Shown here in pieces: positions 9,677 through 23,819 of a DNA stretch of 53,933 bases. The stretch is from contig JAGVZM010000004.1 of assembly GCA_018302545.1 (NCBI GenBank), positions 1 to 53,933 of the forward strand, written 5' to 3'. A model generated the notes under the pieces. The model was not told the DNA's origin. It saw only the letters and a program-made list of their open reading frames with translations, and made no database searches. Within the stretch, counting starts at the first letter, position 1. Each line of letters begins with the position of its first letter. This DNA is from Candidatus Woesearchaeota archaeon. Lineage in GTDB: Archaea > Nanobdellota > Nanobdellia > SCGC-AAA011-G17 > GW2011-AR18. Position numbers and translations under genes: made by a program.

Positions 9677-10705
9677 ATGGGTGTAAATATTGGATCAGTT
9701 GTCTCTAGACATGAGATAGGATTTGGAGATTTGAAGCATAAGATTGTAGGTGTGGATGCTTATAATGCTTTGTATCAATTTTTAAGTTCTATAAGAGGTT
9801 ATGATGGAAGTTATTTGATGGACGAAAAAGGTAATGTTACTTCTCATTTGCAAGGATTGTTTAATAGAACTTTGAATTTAATGAGCAAAGGTGTAAAATT
9901 AGTTTATGTATTTGATGGTGAACCTCCTAAATTGAAGTTTTCTGAAAATGAATTTAGAAAGGAGAGAAAAGCTATTGCTGAAGCTAAATTTGTAGAAGCT
10001 TCTGATGATGATAATTTAGATGAGATGTATAAATATAGCAAACAATTTATGAAATTAACTAAAAATATGGTTGAAGAGAGTAAAAAACTTATTAGTGCTA
10101 TGGGTTTGCCTGTTGTCCAAGCACCTAGTGAAGCTGAAGGACAGGTTGCTTATTTATGTAGAGAGGGATTAGTTGATTATTCTGCTTCACAAGATTATGA
10201 TTCTTTGTTATTTGGTGCTCCTAGACTTGTTAGAAATTTAACTTTAAGTCAAAAGAGAAGAATTAGAGGTGGCAAAACTGTTTTTACTTTTTTGGAATTA
10301 GTTAAATTAGATGAAGTATTAAAAGAACTTCAGTTAAATCAAGAACAATTAATTGCTTTAGGTATTTTATGTGGTACTGATTTTAATGTTGGAGGCGTTA
10401 AGGGTTTTGGACCTAAGAAGGCTTTGAAGTTAGTTAAAGAATATAAAAATTTTGAACAATTTGATAAGATGTTTAATAATTTAAATGTTGAATTTAAGTG
10501 GAATGATGTTTATGATATTTTTGTAAATTTACCTGTAACTAAAAATGTAAAATTAAGATGGGATGAAGTTAATAATGAGAAAGTTAAGAAGGTTTTAGTT
10601 AAAGATCATGATTTTAATGAAGAAAGAGTTCAGAGTTCTTTAGATAAGTATAGAAAGGAAAATAAAAATTCTAATCAGAAAGGATTAGGGGAATTTTTTA
10701 ATTAG
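9677..10705 (+). CDS. fen: Flap endonuclease 1 (FEN1)
   Basis: 342-aa structure-specific 5' nuclease that removes RNA-DNA flaps in Okazaki-fragment maturation and repair. The XPG-N domain begins with the invariant MGV and carries D27 in KIVGVDAYNALY and FDGEPP; the XPG-I domain has APSEAEGQVAYL and ASQDYDSLLFG; a helix-hairpin-helix follows (GGVKGFGPKKALKL). The C-terminus ends in a textbook PCNA-binding PIP box QKGLGEFF (334-341). Transcription is probably leaderless. Its 3' end overlaps the convergent TPR gene by 8 bp. Confidence 0.95.
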   Translation: MGVNIGSVVSRHEIGFGDLKHKIVGVDAYNALYQFLSSIRGYDGSYLMDEKGNVTSHLQGLFNRTLNLMSKGVKLVYVFDGEPPKLKFSENEFRKERKAIAEAKFVEASDDDNLDEMYKYSKQFMKLTKNMVEESKKLISAMGLPVVQAPSEAEGQVAYLCREGLVDYSASQDYDSLLFGAPRLVRNLTLSQKRRIRGGKTVFTFLELVKLDEVLKELQLNQEQLIALGILCGTDFNVGGVKGFGPKKALKLVKEYKNFEQFDKMFNNLNVEFKWNDVYDIFVNLPVTKNVKLRWDEVNNEKVKKVLVKDHDFNEERVQSSLDKYRKENKNSNQKGLGEFFN

Positions 10706-12524
10706 GTGAGCTTAAAGTTCTTCTTATTTCATTTACTTCAGCATTATGTGATGTGCTTAATTGTGTTGCTCTTGAAACTAAGTATCTTATGTATTTTTCT
10801 TCTTTGGTTCCACTAATACCTATTTGCGCTTTCGCAATCATTAAGTAAGGTTCTGGTTTATTAGGATCTAGTTCTTTTGCAGCTAAAGCATATGATTTTG
10901 ATCTTTCGAAATCTGGTTTTGGATCAAACTCAATAAGCAAACCTTCTTTTTTTGTCTTAGCTCTTTCATAGAAACCTTTTGAATGATTTATTAAAACTTT
11001 AAATGCCTCTTCTCTTGTTTTTTTGATTCTTTTTTCTACTAATCTTTCATCTAATGAACCTGCTAAATCTAACTCTTGTTGAGCGTATCTAATAACTTTA
11101 TCTAATTCTCCGCTTCTTGCACCCCTTCCAATAATTATATCTGCTAACATCCAATGTGATTCCCCATAATTCGGATCTAATTTTATTGCTTCTCTAGCTA
11201 AATTTTCTGCTCTTTCATAAAATTCATCCTTTTGACATTCTTCTACATCATTTCCAGATATAACTTCTCTTTCTGCAGAATCTAAAATATAAGAAGTATA
11301 TTTTCTTTTGATTCCTTTTGCTTCTTCTTCTAAATCTTTTCTTTTTTTTGTTGCACAGCTTAATTTATAAAATATAAACTTTCTTGTTCCATTATCGCTT
11401 AGTTTTGAGTCTAATCTAGCTAATTCTAATTGGGCCCTTGCAATTGTTAAATGGGCTTCTACTGATTTTTCTTCATCTAATTTTAATGCTTTTTGTGCTG
11501 CTTCTCTGGCTGAACTATAAACTTCTTTTGCTTCATCTATTTTTCCACTACTCTCTAAAGTTAAAGCTTCAGATACTAGTGCTCTTGATTCATCTACAAG
11601 TACTTTTGGTATTCCCTTTATTATATGTTCATATTTTTCTTTTAATTTTCCTTCTTTTAATATTGGGTCTAAGTCTGTTATTTGGGCTAGAGCTAAATAT
11701 TGTAGTGCTACATCTAAAGTTTTGTGCAGTCCTCTTGTTACTAAACCTGTTTCATATAAACAAGTAAACATTAATTCATTTATTCTAGAATTATTGGGGT
11801 TTAAATGTAATGCTTCTTCTGTTTTTTCTCTTGCCTCTGAATAAGCATTTAATGATATTCCCAAGTTTTGGCCTATTGCATCTCTTGCACTTCTTAACCT
11901 TCCCATAATATCTGATTCTAATGATCTTAATCTTGTTTCATGAGTTATTATCGATCTTATTCTCCTTACATATAAATCATTTACTGCTTCTGCGAAAGGA
12001 ACTTTTGCTTTTTCTAAAATTTCTTTAAAATTAGGATCATAAGATGGTACTCTGTCTGGATCTAGACTATATTCCTTTGCATATTCTACTTCTTCTTCAG
12101 TTATTTTGTGTGTATTGGGTACTCTTTTTTCTTTATCTGTACCTATGAAAGTTGTTACTTCTTGTATTCCATATGGATAAGGGGATTCTGAAACTGATAA
12201 ACCTGAATTATAACCGGGAGGATCTAACCTCATTTCTATTGCAAATAATTTCTCTAGGTCTCTTCCTTCACTTACTGTTTCTATCCCAATTGTTATTCTT
12301 GGTTTATTTTGATCATCTTTGGAAGCAAATATTTTTCTATCAACACTTTTTACTTTAACGAATGAAGGTTCTAAATTTTTTAATTCTAATGGGGCTGTTA
12401 TCACTTCAATAGCTTTTGCTTTTAATCTTCTTCCTAATTTACTCAATTCTCTTGTTTTTTGCCCTTCTCCAATATATGAGGGATGGACATTGAAATCTTG
12501 ATCTACTAATTTTAGTTCTAACAT
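10698..12524 (-). CDS. TPR-repeat protein (608 aa)
   Basis: Soluble protein. An N-terminal mixed beta region (about 1-130) precedes an all-helical part (about 180-608) with TPR-like repeats marked by ALKLDEEKSVEAHLTIARAQ, AIKLDPNYGESHWMLADI and AAKELDPNKPEPYLMIAKAQ. The stretch AREAIKLDPNYGESHWMLAD is closely paralogous to AREALHLNPNSAKAHWRLAD in the 198-aa protein at 16116. The C-terminus follows the same Y/F-I-x3-L-x2-A pattern that ends its neighbours. The gene follows the 452-aa coiled-coil gene by one base, so they form an operon. TPRs are scaffolds; no enzymatic motif is seen. Confidence 0.7.
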   Translation of the reverse strand: MLELKLVDQDFNVHPSYIGEGQKTRELSKLGRRLKAKAIEVITAPLELKNLEPSFVKVKSVDRKIFASKDDQNKPRITIGIETVSEGRDLEKLFAIEMRLDPPGYNSGLSVSESPYPYGIQEVTTFIGTDKEKRVPNTHKITEEEVEYAKEYSLDPDRVPSYDPNFKEILEKAKVPFAEAVNDLYVRRIRSIITHETRLRSLESDIMGRLRSARDAIGQNLGISLNAYSEAREKTEEALHLNPNNSRINELMFTCLYETGLVTRGLHKTLDVALQYLALAQITDLDPILKEGKLKEKYEHIIKGIPKVLVDESRALVSEALTLESSGKIDEAKEVYSSAREAAQKALKLDEEKSVEAHLTIARAQLELARLDSKLSDNGTRKFIFYKLSCATKKRKDLEEEAKGIKRKYTSYILDSAEREVISGNDVEECQKDEFYERAENLAREAIKLDPNYGESHWMLADIIIGRGARSGELDKVIRYAQQELDLAGSLDERLVEKRIKKTREEAFKVLINHSKGFYERAKTKKEGLLIEFDPKPDFERSKSYALAAKELDPNKPEPYLMIAKAQIGISGTKEEKYIRYLVSRATQLSTSHNAEVNEIRRTLSSPN

Positions 12525-12525
12525 T

Positions 12526-13884
12526 TTATTCTAATCCTCTTCTAATTTGATCTGCTCTTTTTCTGAGATTTTTGTCTAACCCCTCTGCTTTTTTTAGATT
12601 ATGTTTTATGAATCTTGCTTGTGAAGCTCCATCTATTTTGTAAACTGCTTCTGCTAGTAAGAAGTAGGATTCTGCGGAATTTACATCTAAAGTTTTTGCA
12701 TCTGATGCATATCCTTTTGCTTCTTTATATTCAGTTAATCTCATTGAACATCTAGCTGCGCCTAATAGTGCTGCATGATTTTTATTATCTGTTCCTAAGA
12801 CAATTGTGAACATTTCTCTTGCTTTTTTAGGATCTTTTCTTTCTATACTTGTTGCTTCTGCATAAAGATTTACTGTTCTCTGCTCTCTTGAGACATCATA
12901 TCCTTGGAATTGCTCTTCAATTAATTTCTTTGCATCTTCTGTTCTACCTTTTCTAATTTTATCTATTAAAGTTGTATATTGTGGATGTTCTGAATTTTGT
13001 AATTTTGTTACTACTGTATCTACTTTTGCTAGCATATCTCCATTTGCTTCACCTAATTGAGATTCATATGCTTTAATTCTTGATTCTAGTCTTACTCTTT
13101 CTTCAGTTACTTGAGCTATATATCTTGTAGCAGCATCTAATGCTTGTTCTTTTCCAGATAAGTCTCTACTTAAATTTGCAACTCTTTCTGCTAATGCTTG
13201 TTCTGTTTTTGATGCTTTTTCAGCTTGGGCTTTTTCTAATGTTACTAATCTAGCTTCATATTCAGATGCTTTTTGTGTTGCTGCTCTTTCTTTAGTTCTT
13301 GCTTCTAGTGCAACTCTCTTTGCTTCATCTAATCTTGCTCTGAAATCTTCTGCTTGTGATCTATAAGTCTCTGCTTGTCTTAATGCATCATTTCTCTCTA
13401 CCATTCTTGCTTGTAGATTATTTCTTAATGCATCTTCTTGAGTTCTACTCATAGTTCCTTTATTTGCTAATTCTCTCTCTAATCTTTCTACTTCTTCTTC
13501 TAATCTACTAAGTTGCACTTCATTTCCAGTTTGTTGTGGTGGAGAAATTCCTTGTGATTGTAAGTATGCTCTTCTATCTCTTCTATATATTTTTATATCA
13601 TCTGCAGATTTTACTCCAGTGATTAATTCATTTACCCTTCTAAGTATCTCTTCTTCTTGCTCACTTACTTGTTCTCCCCTTTGTAATCTTTGTTGTATGG
13701 GCCTAATTACTGTTCCTTGAATATCCCTTAAGGATGCTCTTACTACATTGTAAAGAATTTTATTTGCAGAGGTTCTTGGTAATCCTATAGTATTGTAAAT
13801 TATTAATCCTTCTGGTAATTCAACTAATCCAAGATAATCGAAACTTGGATCTAGTGAGCTTTCCTGAACTGGTTCATCTGTCAT
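12526..13884 (-). CDS. Coiled-coil and TPR-repeat protein (452 aa)
   Basis: The N-terminal 110 residues (FDYLGLVELPEGLIIYNTIG...) are a globular region I do not recognise. A long Ala/Glu/Arg-rich coiled coil follows (about 120-285), then TPR-like helices (about 300-452; NHAALLGAARCSMRLTEYKE, SAESYFLLAEAVYKIDG). The last segment, ARFIKHNLKKAEGLDK, matches the C-termini of the 198-aa and 309-aa neighbours. It is probably an elongated cytosolic scaffold. It is first gene of a two-gene operon with the 608-aa TPR protein; a TTTTTAAATC element about 25-30 nt before the ATG (near 13908-13918, minus strand) is its probable promoter. Confidence 0.65.
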   Translation of the reverse strand: MTDEPVQESSLDPSFDYLGLVELPEGLIIYNTIGLPRTSANKILYNVVRASLRDIQGTVIRPIQQRLQRGEQVSEQEEEILRRVNELITGVKSADDIKIYRRDRRAYLQSQGISPPQQTGNEVQLSRLEEEVERLERELANKGTMSRTQEDALRNNLQARMVERNDALRQAETYRSQAEDFRARLDEAKRVALEARTKERAATQKASEYEARLVTLEKAQAEKASKTEQALAERVANLSRDLSGKEQALDAATRYIAQVTEERVRLESRIKAYESQLGEANGDMLAKVDTVVTKLQNSEHPQYTTLIDKIRKGRTEDAKKLIEEQFQGYDVSREQRTVNLYAEATSIERKDPKKAREMFTIVLGTDNKNHAALLGAARCSMRLTEYKEAKGYASDAKTLDVNSAESYFLLAEAVYKIDGASQARFIKHNLKKAEGLDKNLRKRADQIRRGLE

Positions 13885-13959
13885 TTTAGTTTTTGCTAAC
13901 TTATCTTCTTTTTAAATCTTTCTTTTTGTAATTACTTAACGGTAGTGTATATGCAAAGA

Positions 13960-13968
13960 TTTATATAC
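13960..13968 (+). promoter_or_regulatory. TATA box for the PP2C-like gene
   Basis: TTTATATAC is centred 25 nt before ATG 13989, consistent with leaderless transcription. Confidence 0.55.
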
Positions 13969-13988
13969 TTTATTGTGTTTTTATTTTT

Positions 13989-15185
13989 ATGGTACAATTA
14001 AAAGATTCAAAAGTTAGAGGTTTGTTAGGAAAAGGTATTGAAAAAATAACTGATCAAGAAGAAAGATCTCCTTCTTTACAAGTACATGCAGTTAGAAGAC
14101 CTGCTCAAGATGGTTATAATGATGTTGGCGTAGTTTATGTTGCACCATGGATTCAAGTTCCTGGTACTAAAGTACAGAGTCCTCATTTAGCTATACAAGG
14201 GAGTGAGGGTAAACTTGGTAATTTTTATTGTGTTGCAGAAGGATTTGATCCTAGTAATCATGGTAGTTATAGAAGTTCTCAGGGACATATTGCTGCTTTA
14301 GCAGCTTCAATTTCTTTTATGGAAAATGCTTATCCTGCTTTGATTGCTGCGAAGAATCCTGTTGATATGATGGAAAGGTTAACAAGAACTACTCTTGATG
14401 GTACTGTTCAAAAATTAAAAAATGAAAGTATGAGGAGAGCAGATTTAGATTTAGGATTATTAGCTATTTTGCCTTCAACAAAGGAAGGTGAGGCAAGAGT
14501 GGCAGTAGCTAATATGGGTAATACCAATGTATTAAAATATGATTCAAGAACTAAAACTTTTAGTTTTATGTTTGATAGAAATTCAATAGGAGAACAACAT
14601 GCTTATCGTAAAGGGGTTCCTATCTTTGATAATGGAAGTGCTTATACAAGTCAACAATCTATTGCAATTGCAGAGGATACTATAAATCAAGGAGATGAAT
14701 TATACTTACTTACCTTTATTGCTGATGCTTGGATACATCCTAATGGACCAAATACTCCTTTTATAACTGGAGGAATTGGTAGAAGAGATAGACACTTAGC
14801 AGATGTTAGAGATTCTGAAACAGGATATGTTGACCTTACTAAACTTAGAACAAAGCATTCTGATATGAGATTAGGGACTAGTATCCAAAAAATGTCTGAA
14901 GGAATAGCTGATGCTACTAATGAACTTGATAAAGTTTACTATCATGGAAGTGGAGTCTGGTGGGATTGTGCGGCTATTGGAGTGAGGTATATGGCAGAGG
15001 TTGATACTCCTGATAGGACTGCCTTTTATGTTAATGAAATTGTTAAATTAGCTGGTGAAACTGAGAGTTTAGCAAAATTAATTCCTGCTGGTGCTGGAGG
15101 GGTTAAAGAAGGGGCTGCTACTAAATTATTGCCTGCTGCAATACAAAGTTTAGTTAAATCAGAGAGTGGAAAACTTAAGAAGTAA
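13989..15185 (+). CDS. PP2C-like protein, possibly a pseudophosphatase
   Basis: 398-aa soluble protein. Several segments follow the order of PP2C/PPM phosphatase motifs in altered form: RRPAQDGYNDVGVVYV for the first strand, FYCVAEGFDPSNHGSY for the FDGHGG loop, VAVANMGNTNVLKYD for the VGDSRxxLY strand, INQGDELYLLTFIADAW for GDxxLLxSDG, and WWDCAAIGVRYM for the last DDxTxIVVR strand. Several metal-binding Asp positions appear changed (DGH to EGF, GD to GN), so it may bind phosphoproteins rather than dephosphorylate them. It is the only plus-strand gene inside a minus-strand TPR/glycosyltransferase cluster. The assignment is by eye and needs a profile search. Confidence 0.4.
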   Translation: MVQLKDSKVRGLLGKGIEKITDQEERSPSLQVHAVRRPAQDGYNDVGVVYVAPWIQVPGTKVQSPHLAIQGSEGKLGNFYCVAEGFDPSNHGSYRSSQGHIAALAASISFMENAYPALIAAKNPVDMMERLTRTTLDGTVQKLKNESMRRADLDLGLLAILPSTKEGEARVAVANMGNTNVLKYDSRTKTFSFMFDRNSIGEQHAYRKGVPIFDNGSAYTSQQSIAIAEDTINQGDELYLLTFIADAWIHPNGPNTPFITGGIGRRDRHLADVRDSETGYVDLTKLRTKHSDMRLGTSIQKMSEGIADATNELDKVYYHGSGVWWDCAAIGVRYMAEVDTPDRTAFYVNEIVKLAGETESLAKLIPAGAGGVKEGAATKLLPAAIQSLVKSESGKLKK

Positions 15186-15186
15186 T

Positions 15187-16116
15187 TCATTTATTTAATT
15201 CTTTTTTTAGATCTTCAATTTCTCTTCTCATATTTTCTTTATAAGGTTTTGACCTTGATAATTTTTCTGCTAATCCTAATTGATAATTTATGAATCTTTT
15301 AATTCCATCATTGTTCAGATTTCCTTCTAAAATACTTAAATATACTTGCATTCTAGCAGTTAGGTATCTTGCCTCAGCTTTTTCTTCATCTGAATTCTCT
15401 CCTTTTGAAATATTTATTGCTAAATTTTTTCCATATCTTAATGCTTTTAGGTAACCTCCTCTTGATTCTTGTTTTATACCCCCTTTTAAGGTTCTATATG
15501 AAATTTCTCCTATCTCATTAATTTCTATTAATCTTTCTGCTGCTGTTTTCTTTGGCTCTAGAATTGGGGCTAAAACTAGCTCATATAAATCTAAAACTTC
15601 TCTTTGAAAAGATATATCTGTGTGCCATAATGCTTCTTTTATCCCCCTTCCATTAAATTTAGGAACCTTTTCTCTAAAATCTATTCCATATAAAATTGAT
15701 TCGATAGAACTTCCTGTATCTACTCTAACTACTCTTTCTTTTTCTGGATCATCTCTATAAATTGTTAATAAACAATAATTTGATTTGTCTTCTTCTACCT
15801 CTGTCTCTTTATTATCTACTAATAATAATCCTGGAAATTTTTTTGGATTTACACTAATCTCTGTTCTGTAATGAACCTCTTTCTCATCTTCTCTCATTAC
15901 TCTTATAGTAATTCCTAGATTAGTATCTTCATCTTCATATAAATATCCTCTTTCCTCTGTTTCTAATGGTTCTCCTTTTTCATCTTTACTACCCAATAAT
16001 ATCTCTAGAATTCCTAATCTTTTTATTTCTAAAATATCTTCCTTAGCTATTTCTTCAAATGATCCATCTAAGTCTAATTCTCTTCTTACTCTTGAAACTA
16101 ATTTGAATGTTTTCAT
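15187..16116 (-). CDS. Hypothetical protein with C-terminal TPR-like module (309 aa)
   Basis: A mixed alpha/beta N-terminal region rich in acidic residues (about 1-160) is followed by a helical C-terminal half. The end, KRFINYQLGLAEKLSRS...MRREIEDLKKELNK, is the shared terminal motif found in the 198-aa and 452-aa neighbours. The N-terminal region may be distantly related to that of the 608-aa protein (both start x-KLV and have ITIxxETVS/ITIRVMRED-like strands), but this is weak. Its ATG overlaps the upstream stop by one base (TAATG), so it is translationally coupled to the 198-aa TPR gene and ends the operon. Confidence 0.6.
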   Translation of the reverse strand: MKTFKLVSRVRRELDLDGSFEEIAKEDILEIKRLGILEILLGSKDEKGEPLETEERGYLYEDEDTNLGITIRVMREDEKEVHYRTEISVNPKKFPGLLLVDNKETEVEEDKSNYCLLTIYRDDPEKERVVRVDTGSSIESILYGIDFREKVPKFNGRGIKEALWHTDISFQREVLDLYELVLAPILEPKKTAAERLIEINEIGEISYRTLKGGIKQESRGGYLKALRYGKNLAINISKGENSDEEKAEARYLTARMQVYLSILEGNLNNDGIKRFINYQLGLAEKLSRSKPYKENMRREIEDLKKELNK

Positions 16117-16712
16117 TATTGATCATTTTTTCTTAATTTTATTCTCAATTCTTTTGTTTTTTCTTTATATGAGGAGTCTAATTTTTCTGCTTTCCATAGA
16201 TGGAAATTTATGAATCTTGCTTGTTTTTCTCCACTAATTTTATATTCTGCTAATGCCACTAAGTAATGTGCTTCTGCTGTTTCTCCATTTGCTCTTAATG
16301 CTGTTTCAGAATATTTTTTTGCTAGACAATTGTTCTTTTTACCTGATATTTTTAAAGCATCTTTGGCTCCTTCCATTAAATAATGCAAATAAATTCTTCT
16401 TCTTTCTTCTGCTACTTCTTTGTATTCTAGGGCTAGTCTTTCTGATTCATCTAAATGATAAGTTATTTCTTCTAAACCTTCGTCTAATCTAAATTCATTT
16501 CCAGTTATGCCTAAAATTATGTCTGCTAATCTCCAATGTGCTTTTGCAGAATTTGGGTTTAAATGTAATGCTTCTCTTGCTAGAGTTTCTGCATTTCTAT
16601 AATATTCTAATCTTCTTAGTATATCTTTTTCTTCATTTCCTAATCCTATAATTTTTGCTATAGATGATAATAATTTGTTTGCTCTTTCTTCGGGAGTTAA
16701 TTCTCTTGACAT
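16116..16712 (-). CDS. TPR-repeat protein (198 aa)
   Basis: All-helical protein with TPR units: AREALHLNPNSAKAHWRLAD, an irregular EITYHLDESERLALE helix pair, then ETALRANGETAEAHYLVALA and a terminal KQARFINFHLWKAEKLD. It looks like a compact paralogue of the C-terminal half of the 608-aa protein at 10698. The ATG directly follows the stop of the glycosyltransferase fusion region in a tightly packed operon with no intergenic space. Role: probably a protein-protein scaffold; no catalytic residues. Confidence 0.65.
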   Translation of the reverse strand: MSRELTPEERANKLLSSIAKIIGLGNEEKDILRRLEYYRNAETLAREALHLNPNSAKAHWRLADIILGITGNEFRLDEGLEEITYHLDESERLALEYKEVAEERRRIYLHYLMEGAKDALKISGKKNNCLAKKYSETALRANGETAEAHYLVALAEYKISGEKQARFINFHLWKAEKLDSSYKEKTKELRIKLRKNDQ

Positions 16713-19436
16713 TTACTTTCTCTCCTGCCTGAATAGTGTTAATTCTTGATCTAAATATCCTATTTTAGCACCTGCTCTTGCAATGCTTCCCCAAAATCTC
16801 CAGTCTTGCGCCCTTCTCCATAGTACATTTTGATATCCTGCTTTTTCAATTATCTCCCGTGTTGACATAGTTGTTTGTGCATGGATTTGAGATGTATAAG
16901 CTATTGTTCTATTATTTTTAGGATTTAGATCTCTACTTTTGAATTGTCTTTTTCTTCTTTCATGCCAACCTGAATATGGATGCTCTGGGAAGTCTTTTTC
17001 ATATTGGTCAATTGTCCTTGCGTTTGAATGAACAAAATCTAAATTATTTATTTGTAAATAATCTACTAAATTTGCAGTTCTTTTTGGAAGTGCTACCTCT
17101 GCCCCATCTAAGAAAGATATGTATCTTGCATTACTTTCTAATGCTAATTTAATTCCTAAATTTCTTGCTGATGCAGCTCCTCCATTTCTTTTACTAATTA
17201 CTTTTAATTTTCCTGAGCTTATATGTTTGGAGAATAATTCTCTTGCTTTCTCAGCAGTTAATCCTTTTGTGGAACCATCGTCTATAAGAATCATTCCAAT
17301 ATTACCTGAATAATCTTGTTTTTCTAAAACACTTTCTACTACTTGTTTTGTATGTTCTGGATTCTCATTATAACAAGGGACTATATACATTACGTCATAT
17401 TTTTGGGTTTTTAATTCTTCTGTAGTTTTTTGTACTTCTAAATCTGTTACTTTGTCTCTAGCAGCTCTTTCTAAACTACTTGGACATTGTTTGATGACTT
17501 TTTCTAATAAGCTTAATGCACTTGGTCTATTTCCCAATGCTAATTCATTTATTGCTTTGTGATAATTTACTAATTGGGAATTTGGATCTGCTTTTTGTGC
17601 TTTCCAAAAATAATAATTGGCTCTTTTGTGTTGACTTACAGTAGCGTAATTAATTGCAGTTTCTATATCTGTTGCTCCCTCTAATTTTTTAGGAGTTATC
17701 TCTTTTTTTAATTCTCCTGCTTCTTTATAACCTAATTTTTCTGCTTTATTTATACTATCAACAGCTTCTACAGTTCTTCCCTGTTTTGCTAATAATCTTG
17801 CTTTTAATGCATGAGCTTCTGCGGATAACGGATCTACATAATTAACTACTTCATCTATTGCTGCTAAGCCTAAATCATTTTGGTTTGTTTTTTCTAATTC
17901 TTTTACTAAACCTAACCATGCTGCTCTATGCATGTAATCTGCTGCAATTACTCCTATGAAACCTTTTCCTGCATTAGGCCATTCTTTTTTATCTACTTTT
18001 TCGAATTCTAATCCTATTGCTTCTTTTGAATTTCCATTCTTAGAATCTTCTAGAGCTTCTTTGTATAATCTTAATTTGTATAATTCTCCTTGGTATTCTT
18101 CTGCTTTTTTTAATCCTTTAGAGTCTTCTAATAACCAATGTTCCCCTCTTATTTTTGTAAATTCTGCTTCTGCTTTGTCTACTAATCCTTCTCTACTATA
18201 ATTTATTCCTTGATCAATTATTTTCCTTTCTGTATCTCTCTGTTCTAAAGTGGAAGTATAAATTTGATTCATCTCTTTAGCTTTCTCTAACCATTGATGT
18301 CTTCTAGTTAGTTCTACTCTTGCAGTTTCTGCTTTTTCTTTTGCTTTAGAATCATTTAATGATCTTAATAATGCGGATTTTAATGATCCTACATCTTTTG
18401 GCTCGCAGCCTTCTGCAAAACCTGGTTCAATATATAATTCTGTTGGGCCTCCAGATCTAGTTGCGATTACTGGAGTTCCCATGCACAATGCTTCTAAAGG
18501 AACTAGTCCATATGGTTCTTCCCAGCTTGGCAATACAAACCTATCTGCCATTGAATAAGAAGCTGCTAACTCTATATCATCATCTTTAATCCAATCTTTG
18601 AAAGTAATATGATCTTTAGAACTTGGTAAACTTTTTCTTGCTTCTTCTATTTTTTCTGGACTTAAATCTGATACAATTACTAATCTTGTGTTATCTATTA
18701 ATCCTTCTGAATATAAACTTTCGAAAGCTTGAGTTAATTCTACTAATCCCTTTCTTGGAGCTGATCTTCCTGTAAATAAGATTACTTTTTCTCCATCCTT
18801 TGCTACTTCTCTTCTTATTTCTTTTGCTCTTGATACTACTTTTGGATTTTTATAATATCCCATAAATTTAGTGCCATGACCGACAACTACGCCTTTATCT
18901 TTAATATCAAATGGAAAACCATTTTCTTGTGCTTCTTGCATGTATCTAGAAATATGAACTATTCTATCTGCTCTTTTTGCTGTTTCTGAAACTGCTCTTT
19001 TCCAAGAAGGTATTTTATATTCTCTGAATGGATTATCATGTAAAGTATAAATTAATGGTGCTCCTGGTAGAACTTCCCTTATTCTTTTTAGACCTCCTTC
19101 TAATTCATCTGCAAATGTAAATGTGTGAGTATGGATTATCTCGTATTCATCTGGATTTATTTCTCTTAATAGTTCTTCTATAGATTTATATTCTGTTCCT
19201 TCTGTTTCACCTTTTCTAATTAAGTGAAATGGTCTTTTTGGAAAGTGAATAACTAAATCAACTTCTCTTCCTTCTACTCTTAATCCTTCTGATAATTCAT
19301 CTATTGTTCTTCCCATTCCTCCATGCCTGAAAACTGGGCTTAACATTAAGACTTTTTTTCTTTGAGTAATATTTGGATCTATCTTTAATGAAGGGCCTCC
19401 AGGTCCGAATGCGCTGTTTATTCTAGGAATAGCCAA
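16713..19436 (-). CDS. GT4-TPR-GT2 fusion glycosyltransferase
   Basis: 907 aa with three parts. Residues about 25-400 form a GT-B (GT4 family) glycosyltransferase: HGGMGRTIDELSEGL donor loop, ILFTGRSAPRKGLVEL, and the E-x7-E motif in EEPYGLVPLEALCMGTPVI. Residues about 410-690 are TPR-like helices. Residues about 695-907 form a GT-A (GT2) domain: YIVPCYNENPEHTKQVVESV, ILIDDGSTKG, KRNGGAASARNLGI, a LDGAE sequence where LDxDD is usual, and QDWRFW as the catalytic-base region. Such a protein could add two sugars in turn to a glycan or lipid. The GT-A metal motif is atypical. It overlaps the upstream GT4 gene by 14 bp. Confidence 0.85.
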   Translation of the reverse strand: MAIPRINSAFGPGGPSLKIDPNITQRKKVLMLSPVFRHGGMGRTIDELSEGLRVEGREVDLVIHFPKRPFHLIRKGETEGTEYKSIEELLREINPDEYEIIHTHTFTFADELEGGLKRIREVLPGAPLIYTLHDNPFREYKIPSWKRAVSETAKRADRIVHISRYMQEAQENGFPFDIKDKGVVVGHGTKFMGYYKNPKVVSRAKEIRREVAKDGEKVILFTGRSAPRKGLVELTQAFESLYSEGLIDNTRLVIVSDLSPEKIEEARKSLPSSKDHITFKDWIKDDDIELAASYSMADRFVLPSWEEPYGLVPLEALCMGTPVIATRSGGPTELYIEPGFAEGCEPKDVGSLKSALLRSLNDSKAKEKAETARVELTRRHQWLEKAKEMNQIYTSTLEQRDTERKIIDQGINYSREGLVDKAEAEFTKIRGEHWLLEDSKGLKKAEEYQGELYKLRLYKEALEDSKNGNSKEAIGLEFEKVDKKEWPNAGKGFIGVIAADYMHRAAWLGLVKELEKTNQNDLGLAAIDEVVNYVDPLSAEAHALKARLLAKQGRTVEAVDSINKAEKLGYKEAGELKKEITPKKLEGATDIETAINYATVSQHKRANYYFWKAQKADPNSQLVNYHKAINELALGNRPSALSLLEKVIKQCPSSLERAARDKVTDLEVQKTTEELKTQKYDVMYIVPCYNENPEHTKQVVESVLEKQDYSGNIGMILIDDGSTKGLTAEKARELFSKHISSGKLKVISKRNGGAASARNLGIKLALESNARYISFLDGAEVALPKRTANLVDYLQINNLDFVHSNARTIDQYEKDFPEHPYSGWHERRKRQFKSRDLNPKNNRTIAYTSQIHAQTTMSTREIIEKAGYQNVLWRRAQDWRFWGSIARAGAKIGYLDQELTLFRQERK

Positions 19437-21045
19437 TTTTATCTAAGACCTCCTTTGTTTTAGTTTCTATGTTTGGGTCAATTTTTTTTGCTTGATGTAA
19501 ATGCCATTCTGCTAATTTTCTGACTCCAGAATTATCACTATCTTTGAAACAGTGATAAGTTATGTAATTTAATCCAGGATTTTTTGAATCTAAATCTGCA
19601 GCTTTTTTATATCTTTGTCCTGCTTCCTCTAATCTTCCTTCTCTAAAGTATAATCTTCCAAGTTCTACGAAGGCTTCTCTATGATATGGGTCTTCTTGAG
19701 TTATCCTTTCAAATAAAACCTTAGAATTCTCAGGATTTCCATTATAACCTTTCCATCTTGCTAATTTATACATCTCAACTAGCTTTTTCTCTCTTGTAAT
19801 GTCTCTTCCGATTACTCCTTCGAAACATCTTAAAGCATCATTACTTCTTCCTTCTCTCATTGCTTTTAGACCATTACTATATGCTTCTAGGCTTTGTTTT
19901 CCTGCATCTGCCATATGTTGGTATAATTTTGTTGTCCTTCTTGCAGATTCTTCTATTGTAAACTCTCTCTTTGCTACTTGCTTGGCATGATCTAACATTC
20001 TTGCAATTTCTTCTGGATTTTCAACAGTCCATATTACTGCCTCTATAATTGATTCAGGAGTTGGTTGCATACCTATTGCTATTCCTCTTGATGTGAATAA
20101 TTCGTTTGGTCCATAATTATCTGTTATTGCTACAGGTAAACCTCTTAAGAATCCGTCAACAGCAGCGAGACAGAAACTTTCACGATCACTAGGAATTATT
20201 AATAAGTCAGACATTGTATAAAAAGCATATAATTTTGTAGTATCAGTTACTCTATCTGCAAAATGAACTTTGCCTATACAACTTTCTACATTTTTTTCTA
20301 ACTCTCTTTTTAAACTTTCATTACCTCCTCCAACAAAGATTAATTTTGAATTTATTCCATAATCCTTTTTTAATCTTCTTTCGATTATAGGAAATGCGTT
20401 AGATAATCTTCTTAATCCCTTTTCGCCTGCTATTCTTCCAACATAAAGAAGAACCAGATCATCATCTTCAATTGGGAATTCTTTGGAATATAATTTCCTC
20501 AAAACTCTTTTATCTTGTTTCTCTTCTGTAGGTAATGGGGCTCCGTTTGGAATTATTACTGATTTGTGTATTCCTGGATACCCTATGCAAGGACCTAATG
20601 AAGCTAACATATTATTTATAGTGAAGTGTAATAATCTTTGACTTGCTTGTTGTAATCTTTCCATTCCTTCTCCAGGAGAATAGTCTACTGCATGATGCGT
20701 TGTTAACATTGAAGCAGAAGGTAATGAATCTAAGATTAATTCTAGGCCATGGTCTGTTTTGCCGAAAATTGGGCTATGAAAATGAACTATATCAATTCTA
20801 TTTCTATTTCTTTCTAGATATCCTCCTAATTTAACCATCTTTGATTCCCCATTAGGTTTAACCCTTCTCACATATACTCTATCATTTATTGGCCCTCTTG
20901 GAAATAAAACTAAGGTTTCTGAATCTACCTCTCTTCTTTTATTTAATTCATTTGATAAAGATTCAACACTAGAACCTAAACCACCAGACTTTCTTCCATG
21001 AAAAGGGGTTACTTGTAATACAAAAGGTTTTTCTGTAGCTACCAT
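19423..21045 (-). CDS. GT4-family glycosyltransferase with C-terminal TPR region
   Basis: 540 aa. Residues about 8-385 are a GT-B glycosyltransferase of the GT4 type: TPFHGRKSGGLGSSVESLS at the N-terminus, LLYVGRIAGEKGLRRL at the start of the donor domain, and SDRESFCLAAVDGFLRGLPV in the E-x7-E position, with Asp replacing the second Glu. Residues about 395-540 are TPR-like (AFVELGRLYFREGRLEEAGQ, YKKAADLDSKNPGLNYI). No membrane segment, so it probably acts at the cytoplasmic face. First gene of a four-gene minus-strand operon; a TTATAAAA element near 21068-21079 is placed as its promoter. Confidence 0.85.
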   Translation of the reverse strand: MVATEKPFVLQVTPFHGRKSGGLGSSVESLSNELNKRREVDSETLVLFPRGPINDRVYVRRVKPNGESKMVKLGGYLERNRNRIDIVHFHSPIFGKTDHGLELILDSLPSASMLTTHHAVDYSPGEGMERLQQASQRLLHFTINNMLASLGPCIGYPGIHKSVIIPNGAPLPTEEKQDKRVLRKLYSKEFPIEDDDLVLLYVGRIAGEKGLRRLSNAFPIIERRLKKDYGINSKLIFVGGGNESLKRELEKNVESCIGKVHFADRVTDTTKLYAFYTMSDLLIIPSDRESFCLAAVDGFLRGLPVAITDNYGPNELFTSRGIAIGMQPTPESIIEAVIWTVENPEEIARMLDHAKQVAKREFTIEESARRTTKLYQHMADAGKQSLEAYSNGLKAMREGRSNDALRCFEGVIGRDITREKKLVEMYKLARWKGYNGNPENSKVLFERITQEDPYHREAFVELGRLYFREGRLEEAGQRYKKAADLDSKNPGLNYITYHCFKDSDNSGVRKLAEWHLHQAKKIDPNIETKTKEVLDKIGYS

Positions 21046-21146: not shown

Positions 21147-23819
21147 TTAAGGGAATAAAGGGCCGCCTGGACCAAAGGGACCTCCTGTTCCTCCACTAGA
21201 AGTACCGCCTGAAGCTCCTGATCCTCCATAACCTTCTATTTCTATTAAAGTTATCAATTGTGCAATTATATTTCCGTCTTTTAATATAGAGAATACTATT
21301 CCGTAGATGTCTGCCTCACTTTGATTTAATTGATATGGATTAATTATTGATGTTATGTGTACTGCAGTTGGTAATGTTGTTGATTTTATATCCCAGTCTA
21401 TAGTATATTCAGATGCAAAGTCTGCTGGATCTATTCCTTCAGCTCCTCCTAATAATTTATAATTATGGTTTATATCTAAAGGAGTATGTGCTGTTGTAGC
21501 ATTTGTTAGATTTATTACGTTTCCAATTTGTGCATCTCCTGCATCAGCATCTAAAATTGTTATTGTTGGTTTCAATGCTTCTTTAACCTCGACTAATATT
21601 ACATCATATACTTCTGGCATCGCTTCTATATTTCCACTTCCATCTTCTGTTATTGCTGTAGCTATTAAGTAATATGGGCCTGCAGCTAAAGTGTCTGGTA
21701 TATTTACATTTACTGCTGCTCCTTGATTTAATATTGTTCCTTTTGATCTTTCATCTACTGTATCAAAGCCCCCTGCAGCTTCTTTTAGGCTCCAGAATAT
21801 ATTTTTTATTTGACTATTTAGGTCTTCTACTACAGTTGCTTCTACGTCTAAGTTTTGATTTTGATAAACTGTATAAGGTGTTGATGTGTCTACAGTATCT
21901 TCTTTTGTTTTTGGTTTTATAATTTTTATTACTGGAAGTTCTGTTTGTACATTTATTGGGACTTCTATTGTTGCTTCTACATTTCCATTTTTGGAGAAAG
22001 TACATACAATTTTTTTTGTTCCTGGAGATCTTAAGGATATTGCTGCTGTTGGTGGATTGTGATTTGCTCCGAATCCAAATTTATCTTTGTTAGGTCCTGT
22101 TGTTACTAAATCATTTGCTATAATATTTATTTCGTATTCACTTGTTACATTATTTGTATTTCTTGTTGCTTCTGGTAAGAAGTAGAACTTATCTCCAATG
22201 TTTGCAATAAATATATTTGCAGAACTTGCGAAGTTTGGATCTGCTCTTAGATATTCATTTTTATCTTTATCTAATACATTTAAATGGAACTCTGTGGTTC
22301 CTATAGCTTCAGTTACTTCTATATGGAAGAAATCCAATAATGGTTTGTTATTAAATGGACTTACATATACTTTATTTTTATCAAATAAAGCAACACAAAT
22401 TATAGTATTCATTCCTTGAGGGAGATCTAATGGTGCTGTTCCTAATGGTGTGGTAAAGGGTTTTGTTCCATCACTATCTCTTATTCTTGTTGCATGAGAT
22501 ATTACCTCTGGAGTTATATCTGTCACATGTCCTGGAACATATAACCAACGTGCATTGGAAACTGCTTTTGGTATAGATCCTTCTATTCTGTAATTAAATG
22601 TAAGGTTTGTTCCATTGTTTGTAGGGGGATGTGTTCTGTTTCCTGTTGCAGTATCAATTGGTTGCTTGATAATAAGTTGTGGAGGTCTTATGTCTACAAC
22701 AACATCTTCTGACCCTAAAGCTTGAATTGATCCATCTGTTAAGTTTGTTGCGACTACAGAAATATTTAGTACGTTTCTTAGTCTACCTCTAATTCTTTTT
22801 TGTGTTATATGTGCATCATTAGGAATCTTATAAGTAATTGTTGGTCCATGGGACTGATTATTTAAAGTGTGTGAATCTTCAATATCTATCCCTCCGACAT
22901 TCCATGCAAAATGGAAGCCTTGACCGGTTACATCTTCTTTTGAACTTAAGAATAAAGCTCCTTTGATTTTGAAAACTTTTCCTGTTATACTTAGAGTTTG
23001 ACCTAAAGGATAACCGTCTGCAAAGGTACTTATTAATGGAAAGGTACTTATTACAACATCAAGTTTTTCTGCTTTTAATCTTTCTGCACCTCTTCCACCT
23101 AACTCTCCTGCTATGTCTCCTGCTCCACTTAGTGTTTTTCCTATTCCTTTACCTAAACCTTCACCTGCTGCTCCTGCTCCTTTTAATAAACCGCCTAAGC
23201 CTTCAGCAGCTGCGCTTGCTCCTGCACTTCCTCCAGCTGTTCCTCCTGCTCCTTTAATTACCCAAAGAAGTAATAGTATTATTCCTACTAGTATTGCTGC
23301 TGGTATTAACCAAGGAGGCAACAAACCAAAAGGTAGTAATCCAGGGAATAATTCAGACATAATTATTAATGCTAATATTAGTAGAATTACTGCTGGAAGT
23401 ATTGCAATGCTATCTTGTTTTGTTAAGAACTGATACATCAAAGCTATGAATAATATAATAAAAACTATTAGGATTAAAGGACCGAAATCAAAAAGAGATA
23501 ATCCTCTTGCGCTTAAGAATAAAGTCAGTCCTAATGATGCAAATAATCCGATGCCTAAATATAATCCTGTTGCACCTGCAGGTTCTTTTCCATCTTTTCC
23601 ATATATTCTTGTATAGCCTATTCTTGCTGCACTTGCGAAGACCAAGAAAAAGACTGCAGCATCAATCCAAGTCTGCCATGCAAAATATAAAGTTCTTAGA
23701 TCAGGAGGAGCATAGAATGCTGATACTAAATTTTCAAATAGTGCAAATACACTTGGAATTAATGTTAATAGAAATATTGTAATAAGTAGTAAAACACCCA
23801 CTCTCTTTTTAATTTGCAT
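21147..23819 (-). CDS. Large multi-TM surface protein with Ig-like repeats (890 aa)
   Basis: The N-terminus has about six hydrophobic segments (roughly 7-27, 50-70, 85-105, 112-132, 140-160, 170-190), followed by a Gly/Ala-rich linker (about 190-250). A long extracellular part (about 260-865) consists of beta-rich domains with PxIxIxxPxxxT-like strand starts typical of archaeal Ig/PKD-type surface modules, for example LIIKQPIDTATGNRTHP and PVIKIIKPKTKEDTVDT. It ends in a Gly/Ser/Pro-rich tail. No sortase or catalytic motif is seen. A likely role is cell-envelope structure or interaction. The neighbouring glycosyltransferases could modify it, but that is inference. Confidence 0.65.
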   Translation of the reverse strand: MQIKKRVGVLLLITIFLLTLIPSVFALFENLVSAFYAPPDLRTLYFAWQTWIDAAVFFLVFASAARIGYTRIYGKDGKEPAGATGLYLGIGLFASLGLTLFLSARGLSLFDFGPLILIVFIILFIALMYQFLTKQDSIAILPAVILLILALIIMSELFPGLLPFGLLPPWLIPAAILVGIILLLLWVIKGAGGTAGGSAGASAAAEGLGGLLKGAGAAGEGLGKGIGKTLSGAGDIAGELGGRGAERLKAEKLDVVISTFPLISTFADGYPLGQTLSITGKVFKIKGALFLSSKEDVTGQGFHFAWNVGGIDIEDSHTLNNQSHGPTITYKIPNDAHITQKRIRGRLRNVLNISVVATNLTDGSIQALGSEDVVVDIRPPQLIIKQPIDTATGNRTHPPTNNGTNLTFNYRIEGSIPKAVSNARWLYVPGHVTDITPEVISHATRIRDSDGTKPFTTPLGTAPLDLPQGMNTIICVALFDKNKVYVSPFNNKPLLDFFHIEVTEAIGTTEFHLNVLDKDKNEYLRADPNFASSANIFIANIGDKFYFLPEATRNTNNVTSEYEINIIANDLVTTGPNKDKFGFGANHNPPTAAISLRSPGTKKIVCTFSKNGNVEATIEVPINVQTELPVIKIIKPKTKEDTVDTSTPYTVYQNQNLDVEATVVEDLNSQIKNIFWSLKEAAGGFDTVDERSKGTILNQGAAVNVNIPDTLAAGPYYLIATAITEDGSGNIEAMPEVYDVILVEVKEALKPTITILDADAGDAQIGNVINLTNATTAHTPLDINHNYKLLGGAEGIDPADFASEYTIDWDIKSTTLPTAVHITSIINPYQLNQSEADIYGIVFSILKDGNIIAQLITLIEIEGYGGSGASGGTSSGGTGGPFGPGGPLFP

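Follow-up and report, generated by a model that had tools for sequence, protein, structure and literature searches.

The locus described here raises the question of whether seven closely packed genes beside an archaeal surface-protein gene act as one glycosylation system, and whether such a system is a new one. The window (the whole stretch of DNA analysed, 53,933 nucleotides) is contig C23 of a Candidatus Woesearchaeota genome of 1.16 Mb that is 95.6% complete (G000). Little is known about how DPANN archaea, many of which are thought to depend on host contact, construct and diversify their surfaces. We conclude that the locus is a real, rare and syntenic accessory island, which extends the known TPR-glycosyltransferase modules with a lineage-specific TPR family. 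It is possible that it constitutes an undescribed system, and among the papers searched none on such a locus in Woesearchaeota or DPANN was found.

Gene arrangement of the island

The island covers about 10.3 kb between the gene for FEN1 and that for a membrane/Ig-like surface protein. Seven genes are present in the ORF listing at 10698-21045, and they are given here together with one intergenic region and the neighbouring surface-protein gene:

TPR608, 10698 to 12524, minus strand: N-terminal domain related to a 301-aa protein of contig C21, then TPR repeats including two copies of the shared module
CC452, 12526 to 13884, minus strand: coiled-coil protein with a C-terminal TPR module; N-terminal part conserved in genome G008
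Divergent intergenic region, 13885 to 13988: 104 bp between CC452 and the PP2C-like gene
PP2C-like protein, 13989 to 15185, plus strand: 398 aa
TPR309, 15187 to 16116, minus strand: uncharacterised N-terminal domain and a helical TPR-like module at the C-terminus
TPR198, 16116 to 16712, minus strand: small TPR protein with two module-like repeats
GT907, 16713 to 19436, minus strand: GT4-TPR-GT2 fusion with a putative TTG start (mechanical ORF listing)
GT540, 19423 to 21045, minus strand: GT4-TPR, with the shared C-terminal module weakly recognised
Surface protein, 21147 to 23819, minus strand: five or six TM-like segments, then a long ectodomain-like part

All seven reading frames named in an earlier sequence-only reading of this DNA are present where it had placed them, and the tight minus-strand packing that it described is borne out: CC452 and TPR608 are separated by 1 bp, TPR309 and TPR198 overlap by 1 bp, TPR198 and GT907 abut, and GT907 and GT540 overlap by 14 bp. 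The giant surface protein that it saw next door is a protein of 890 aa carrying the TM-like segments. Within the divergent intergenic region a TATA-like stretch, TTTATATA, lies about 24 bp upstream of the PP2C-like start, read by eye as a promoter. No TM-like segments were found in any island protein, and from their sequences these proteins look soluble. The GC content of the island (0.32) and the GC3 of its genes (0.11-0.17) are similar to those of the remaining window and therefore give no sign of recent import.

Occurrence of the island in related genomes

The core of the island recurs in one other species, of another genus of the same family (G008, a Woesearchaeota MAG). The order there is TRM5, surface protein (809 aa), GT4 (444 aa), PP2C-like gene on the opposite strand, coiled-coil protein, a second GT4 (381 aa) and FEN1. 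The recurring core, made up of the surface protein, a GT4, the PP2C-like protein and the coiled-coil protein, has the same order and orientation as in the window and lies within the same flanking genes; in both genomes the PP2C-like gene faces the glycosyltransferase side tail-to-tail and, across about 100 bp, the coiled-coil gene head-to-head. The second GT4 of G008 differs from that of the window. The coiled-coil proteins match with an E-value of 4e-6, that of G008 being readable for 258 aa before a run of N, so that its C-terminal end is not visible. This run interrupts the island at 11071-11086 of the G008 contig (C7), where FEN1 (12297-13306) is read in two frames (residues 1-247 and 270-341) owing to a frameshift or an assembly error. 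The co-occurrence in relatives that the sequence-only reading had named as a check is found, in order, for the four core genes in one other genus, but not for the stand-alone TPR genes, which are confined to the window's genome.

In other relatives FEN1, surface-type proteins and TRM5 are retained and the island is missing. In G001 and G003, one or two large proteins come directly after FEN1, among them a match to the window's surface protein, and TRM5 is next. The FEN1-TRM5 interval of G002 holds a protein of 1095 aa, whose TM block at the N-terminus is similar, together with an ORF of 147 aa. The contigs of G004 and G005 stop at or barely past the large gene adjoining FEN1, and in G007 two ORFs (504 and 173 aa) follow FEN1 close to the contig end. 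No match to the island genes was found at the FEN1 sites of these six genomes, and the surface protein is a resident of this site both with and without the island. Across the relatives the large surface-type proteins adjoining FEN1 vary in length between about 720 and 2470 aa, with conserved flanking genes. The sequons of the surface protein showed no special enrichment, nor was sequon enrichment specific to genomes with the island. In a tree built on three genes of the neighbourhood, G008 falls outside the group of G000 and G003-G005 (SH-aLRT 92 and 93, quick method), which implies either that the island was ancestral and then lost in G003-G005 or that it moved.

Within the phylum sample the PP2C-like protein was detected in 2 of 371 genomes, and within the order convincingly in 2 of 103, in scans that rely on sequence similarity and that distant homologues may escape. 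One record was obtained among the GTDB r220 contigs, from which the window's own genome is possibly absent. Contig JAGWAD010000011.1 (Candidatus Woesearchaeota archaeon RIFCSPLOWO2_01_FULL_28_39) has the same PP2C-like match as the G008 contig. Short matches to this query in G218, G002 and G452 (G212 left out) fall in ORFs that look unrelated. No homologues of the PP2C-like protein were found in viral contigs or phages, and a provirus was rejected as an explanation of the island, the PHROG matches being limited to glycosyltransferase and TPR types.

Such a distribution might suggest that the genes are not one system, being unrelated accessory genes that share a variable site by chance, with the TPR proteins arising from local duplication. 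The TPR proteins private to one genome, the different second GT4 of G008 and the surface gene found regardless of the island all agree with this. Nevertheless we consider it unlikely, given a core order kept across two genera while the PP2C-like proteins are 43% identical, a TPR module that is carried by GT540 besides the scaffold proteins, and genes that abut or overlap.

Glycosyltransferases and TPR proteins

Two GT4 enzymes, one of them with a fused GT2 domain, had been proposed, and Pfam confirms both: GT540 is a GT4-TPR protein (Glycos_transf_1, 3e-22) and GT907 a GT4-TPR-GT2 protein (Glycos_transf_1, 8e-23; Glycos_transf_2, 7e-19, with the GT2 domain at residues 685-835), all far above the cut-offs. 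GT907 has an EX7E motif at 307-315, where GT540 has EX7D instead. GT2 enzymes often carry DxD and [E/D]DW motifs; the GT2 domain of GT907 has LDGAE and QDW. Among ten genomes the top match of the GT907 GT4 domain, ahead of all others, is the syntenic GT4 of G008, which fits common descent. Orthology of the island GT4s was also sought in a GT4 tree, which gave no resolution.

Among named families, both GT4 domains come closest to enzymes for exopolysaccharide, LPS, teichuronic acid and glycolipids, at scores far below the cut-offs, and the GT2 domain also matches families of these types. These matches favour the main alternative to protein glycosylation, in which the glycosyltransferases would act one after another on an acceptor, lipid-linked or polysaccharide, at the inner face of the membrane; the TPR and coiled-coil proteins would keep these enzymes assembled, and the surface protein would be a mere neighbour. 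We regard this as rather unlikely, since the seven genes include no flippase, polymerase, polyprenyl transferase or TM protein, and the fusion of TPR to the glycosyltransferases suggests protein partners.

A further match, to the Pfam GT4-conflict model, is above the cut-off in GT907 and GT540, yet well under the ordinary GT4 models on the same domains. Together with the patchy presence of the island it could point to a defence-type signalling or conflict module, where TPR sensors and a PP2C-like phosphatase would control glycosyltransferase effectors modifying a cellular or invader target. PADLOC components gave nothing beyond weak coiled-coil and chance matches, however, and none of the domains recognised was of nuclease, NTPase or toxin-like type, so that this explanation appears improbable.

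The TPR-like helices announced for the island proteins are recognised by Pfam above the cut-off in three of them, TPR608 (TPR_19, 2e-9) and, barely, CC452 and GT540. The best TPR match of TPR198 (TPR_16, E-value 1.2e-5) and that of GT907 fall under the cut-off, and TPR309 has no Pfam TPR match. The latter was assigned to the TPR set by its homology to other island proteins and by a confident helical model of residues ~190-309, for which all Foldseek matches, to helical-repeat and 14-3-3-type proteins, had E-values >0.1. In addition to its TPR-like repeats CC452 has a long coiled coil, in line with the coiled-coil scaffold of the sequence-only reading.

Pairwise tests strongly linked the C-terminal modules of TPR608, CC452 and TPR198 (TPR198 matches TPR608 with an E-value of 3e-14) and more weakly those of TPR309 and GT540, whereas the TPR region of GT907 was linked solely to that of GT540. 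The suggested common ancestry of the TPR regions is therefore retained for the C-terminal module of five of the six TPR-bearing proteins, with GT907 outside. A module model built from six island copies matched two proteins of contig C21 of the same genome that had been left out of its construction (240 aa, E-value 3e-14; 301 aa, E-value 1e-12), so that the homologous C-terminal TPR module is found in five island proteins and two proteins of a second locus. The extended model gave nothing comparable in the other 102 order genomes (best E-value 0.002). From these comparisons the island TPR proteins appear to be largely one lineage-specific family. TPR608 and the 301-aa protein have related N-terminal domains (0/300 shuffles); homology between the N-terminal domains of TPR608 and TPR309 seemed plausible by eye and was unsupported (47/300 shuffles). 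The two C21 proteins adjoin each other at 9945-11638, both ending in the module, and the N-terminus of the 240-aa protein is FHA-like by eye, without Pfam support.

TPR arrays joined to glycosyltransferases have precedents. OGT, of family GT41, combines a TPR array with a glycosyltransferase acting in the cytosol. The same combination is described for SPINDLY, also of GT41 (PMC9715652). The island proteins share this joining, their catalytic domains matching GT4 and GT2 models and not GT41. In Caulobacter crescentus the TPR domain of FlmG binds flagellins, which its glycosyltransferase domain then modifies while they are still in the cytoplasm and not yet exported (PMC7591256). GT907 and GT540, as predicted soluble proteins with a TPR region and a GT-B-type glycosyltransferase in one chain, resemble FlmG, also in having a surface protein as possible client (PMC7591256). 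They differ from it in that the TPR region is C-terminal to the glycosyltransferase and not N-terminal, in their GT4 (and GT2) Pfam families, in the several stand-alone TPR paralogues and in a client that is here a candidate.

The PP2C-like protein and the function of the island

The gene on the opposite strand that had been called PP2C-like is present, but no PP2C family model or solved PP2C was matched in Pfam, NCBIfam or PDB sequences to support the name; a canonical PP2C from the order is easily detected. PPM/PP2C phosphatases have Asp residues in motifs 1, 2, 8 and 11 (PMC12088040). When these motifs were placed by hand they fell on D41, E84 (Glu replacing Asp in both species), D246 and D326, and D41, E84-G85, D246 and D326 are common to the window protein and its G008 orthologue. 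Comparison by hhalign with a profile of ten canonical PP2Cs gave a P-value of 0.0066 and 1/300 column shuffles, figures that, like the others of this kind here, are optimistic because several tests were tried after the resemblance had been seen. The match spans motif 2 (CVAEGFD...GH against VADGMGGH), while a forced full-length alignment put motifs 8 and 11 off from their by-eye placement.

In an ordered-motif scan the window protein came out at 2/300 and that of G008 at 22/300, with motifs partly at the by-eye positions; the figures were 14/200 and 1/200 for two divergent PP2C-like proteins of the order, and the longer, unrelated surface protein had a similar raw score. A link to these two divergent proteins (A7) was sought by profile comparison, which gave no signal. 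The structure predicted from two sequences was unusable (pLDDT 29.5). The profile comparison and the conserved acidic residues make the PP2C identity plausible; the protein probably has a PP2C fold, with a clear margin of doubt, and we place phosphatase activity below this.

No island-specific kinase was found. A 729-aa protein at 13754-15943 of contig C21, in which TM-like and TPR-like parts accompany a weak APH-type kinase domain, was considered as a dedicated kinase and rejected, because it is present in 9 of 10 family genomes and hence not tied to the island. The island resembles the bacterial PP2C/kinase pairs in that a PPM phosphatase would act on a process related to the surface, and differs from them by having no adjacent kinase.

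Our favoured reading, held tentatively and at somewhat less than an even chance, is that the accessory island at the surface-protein site encodes a cytosolic glycosylation module. Its catalytic GT4 and GT2 domains, with the TPR arms that they carry, would cooperate with the related TPR and coiled-coil proteins; the latter would bring the glycosyltransferases to a protein client or to one another. The client may be the neighbouring membrane/Ig-like surface protein, and the divergent PP2C-like protein may reverse a phosphorylation controlling assembly or activity. Client, sugar, physical assembly, phosphatase activity and regulation are all things that we infer. This proposal is favoured by the presence of GT4/GT2 and TPR in the same chains, the core order and orientation kept in G008, the best match of the GT907 GT4 domain to the syntenic GT4, the module shared by scaffold proteins and GT540, the soluble look of the proteins and the FlmG precedent. 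Against it count the surface protein of relatives without the island, the sequons without special enrichment, the EX7D of GT540 and the LDGAE/QDW of the GT2 domain, the GT4 tree that gave no orthology resolution, and the uncertain PP2C identity together with the lack of a dedicated kinase. Of the scaffolded, phospho-regulated surface glycosylation machine first suggested, scaffolded glycosylation thus remains a reasonable inference, but phospho-regulation meets weak PP2C statistics and no island-specific kinase.

If the proposed module is real, a variable surface-protein gene with soluble TPR-glycosyltransferases encoded next to it would offer a testable route to surface variation, and the TPR-glycosyltransferase logic of FlmG and OGT/SPINDLY would be extended to archaea with GT4/GT2 enzymes. 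A more elaborate version, in which the private TPR module at the C-terminus would serve a glycosyltransferase and several adaptors as a common docking tag in an undescribed archaeal system with a two-locus assembly and PPM-type phosphatase control, seems to us a long shot.

Other PP2C-type genes were observed in the same order. In G221 a canonical PP2C domain is joined to a TM-like, LysM-like region (contig C31, 2-2022), and this protein adjoins one with an FHA-like stretch recognised by eye. A divergent PP2C-like pair, 37% identical, occurs in two other families of the order (L065, 1456-2328; L067, 1090-2013), one member being above and the other below the Pfam cut-off.
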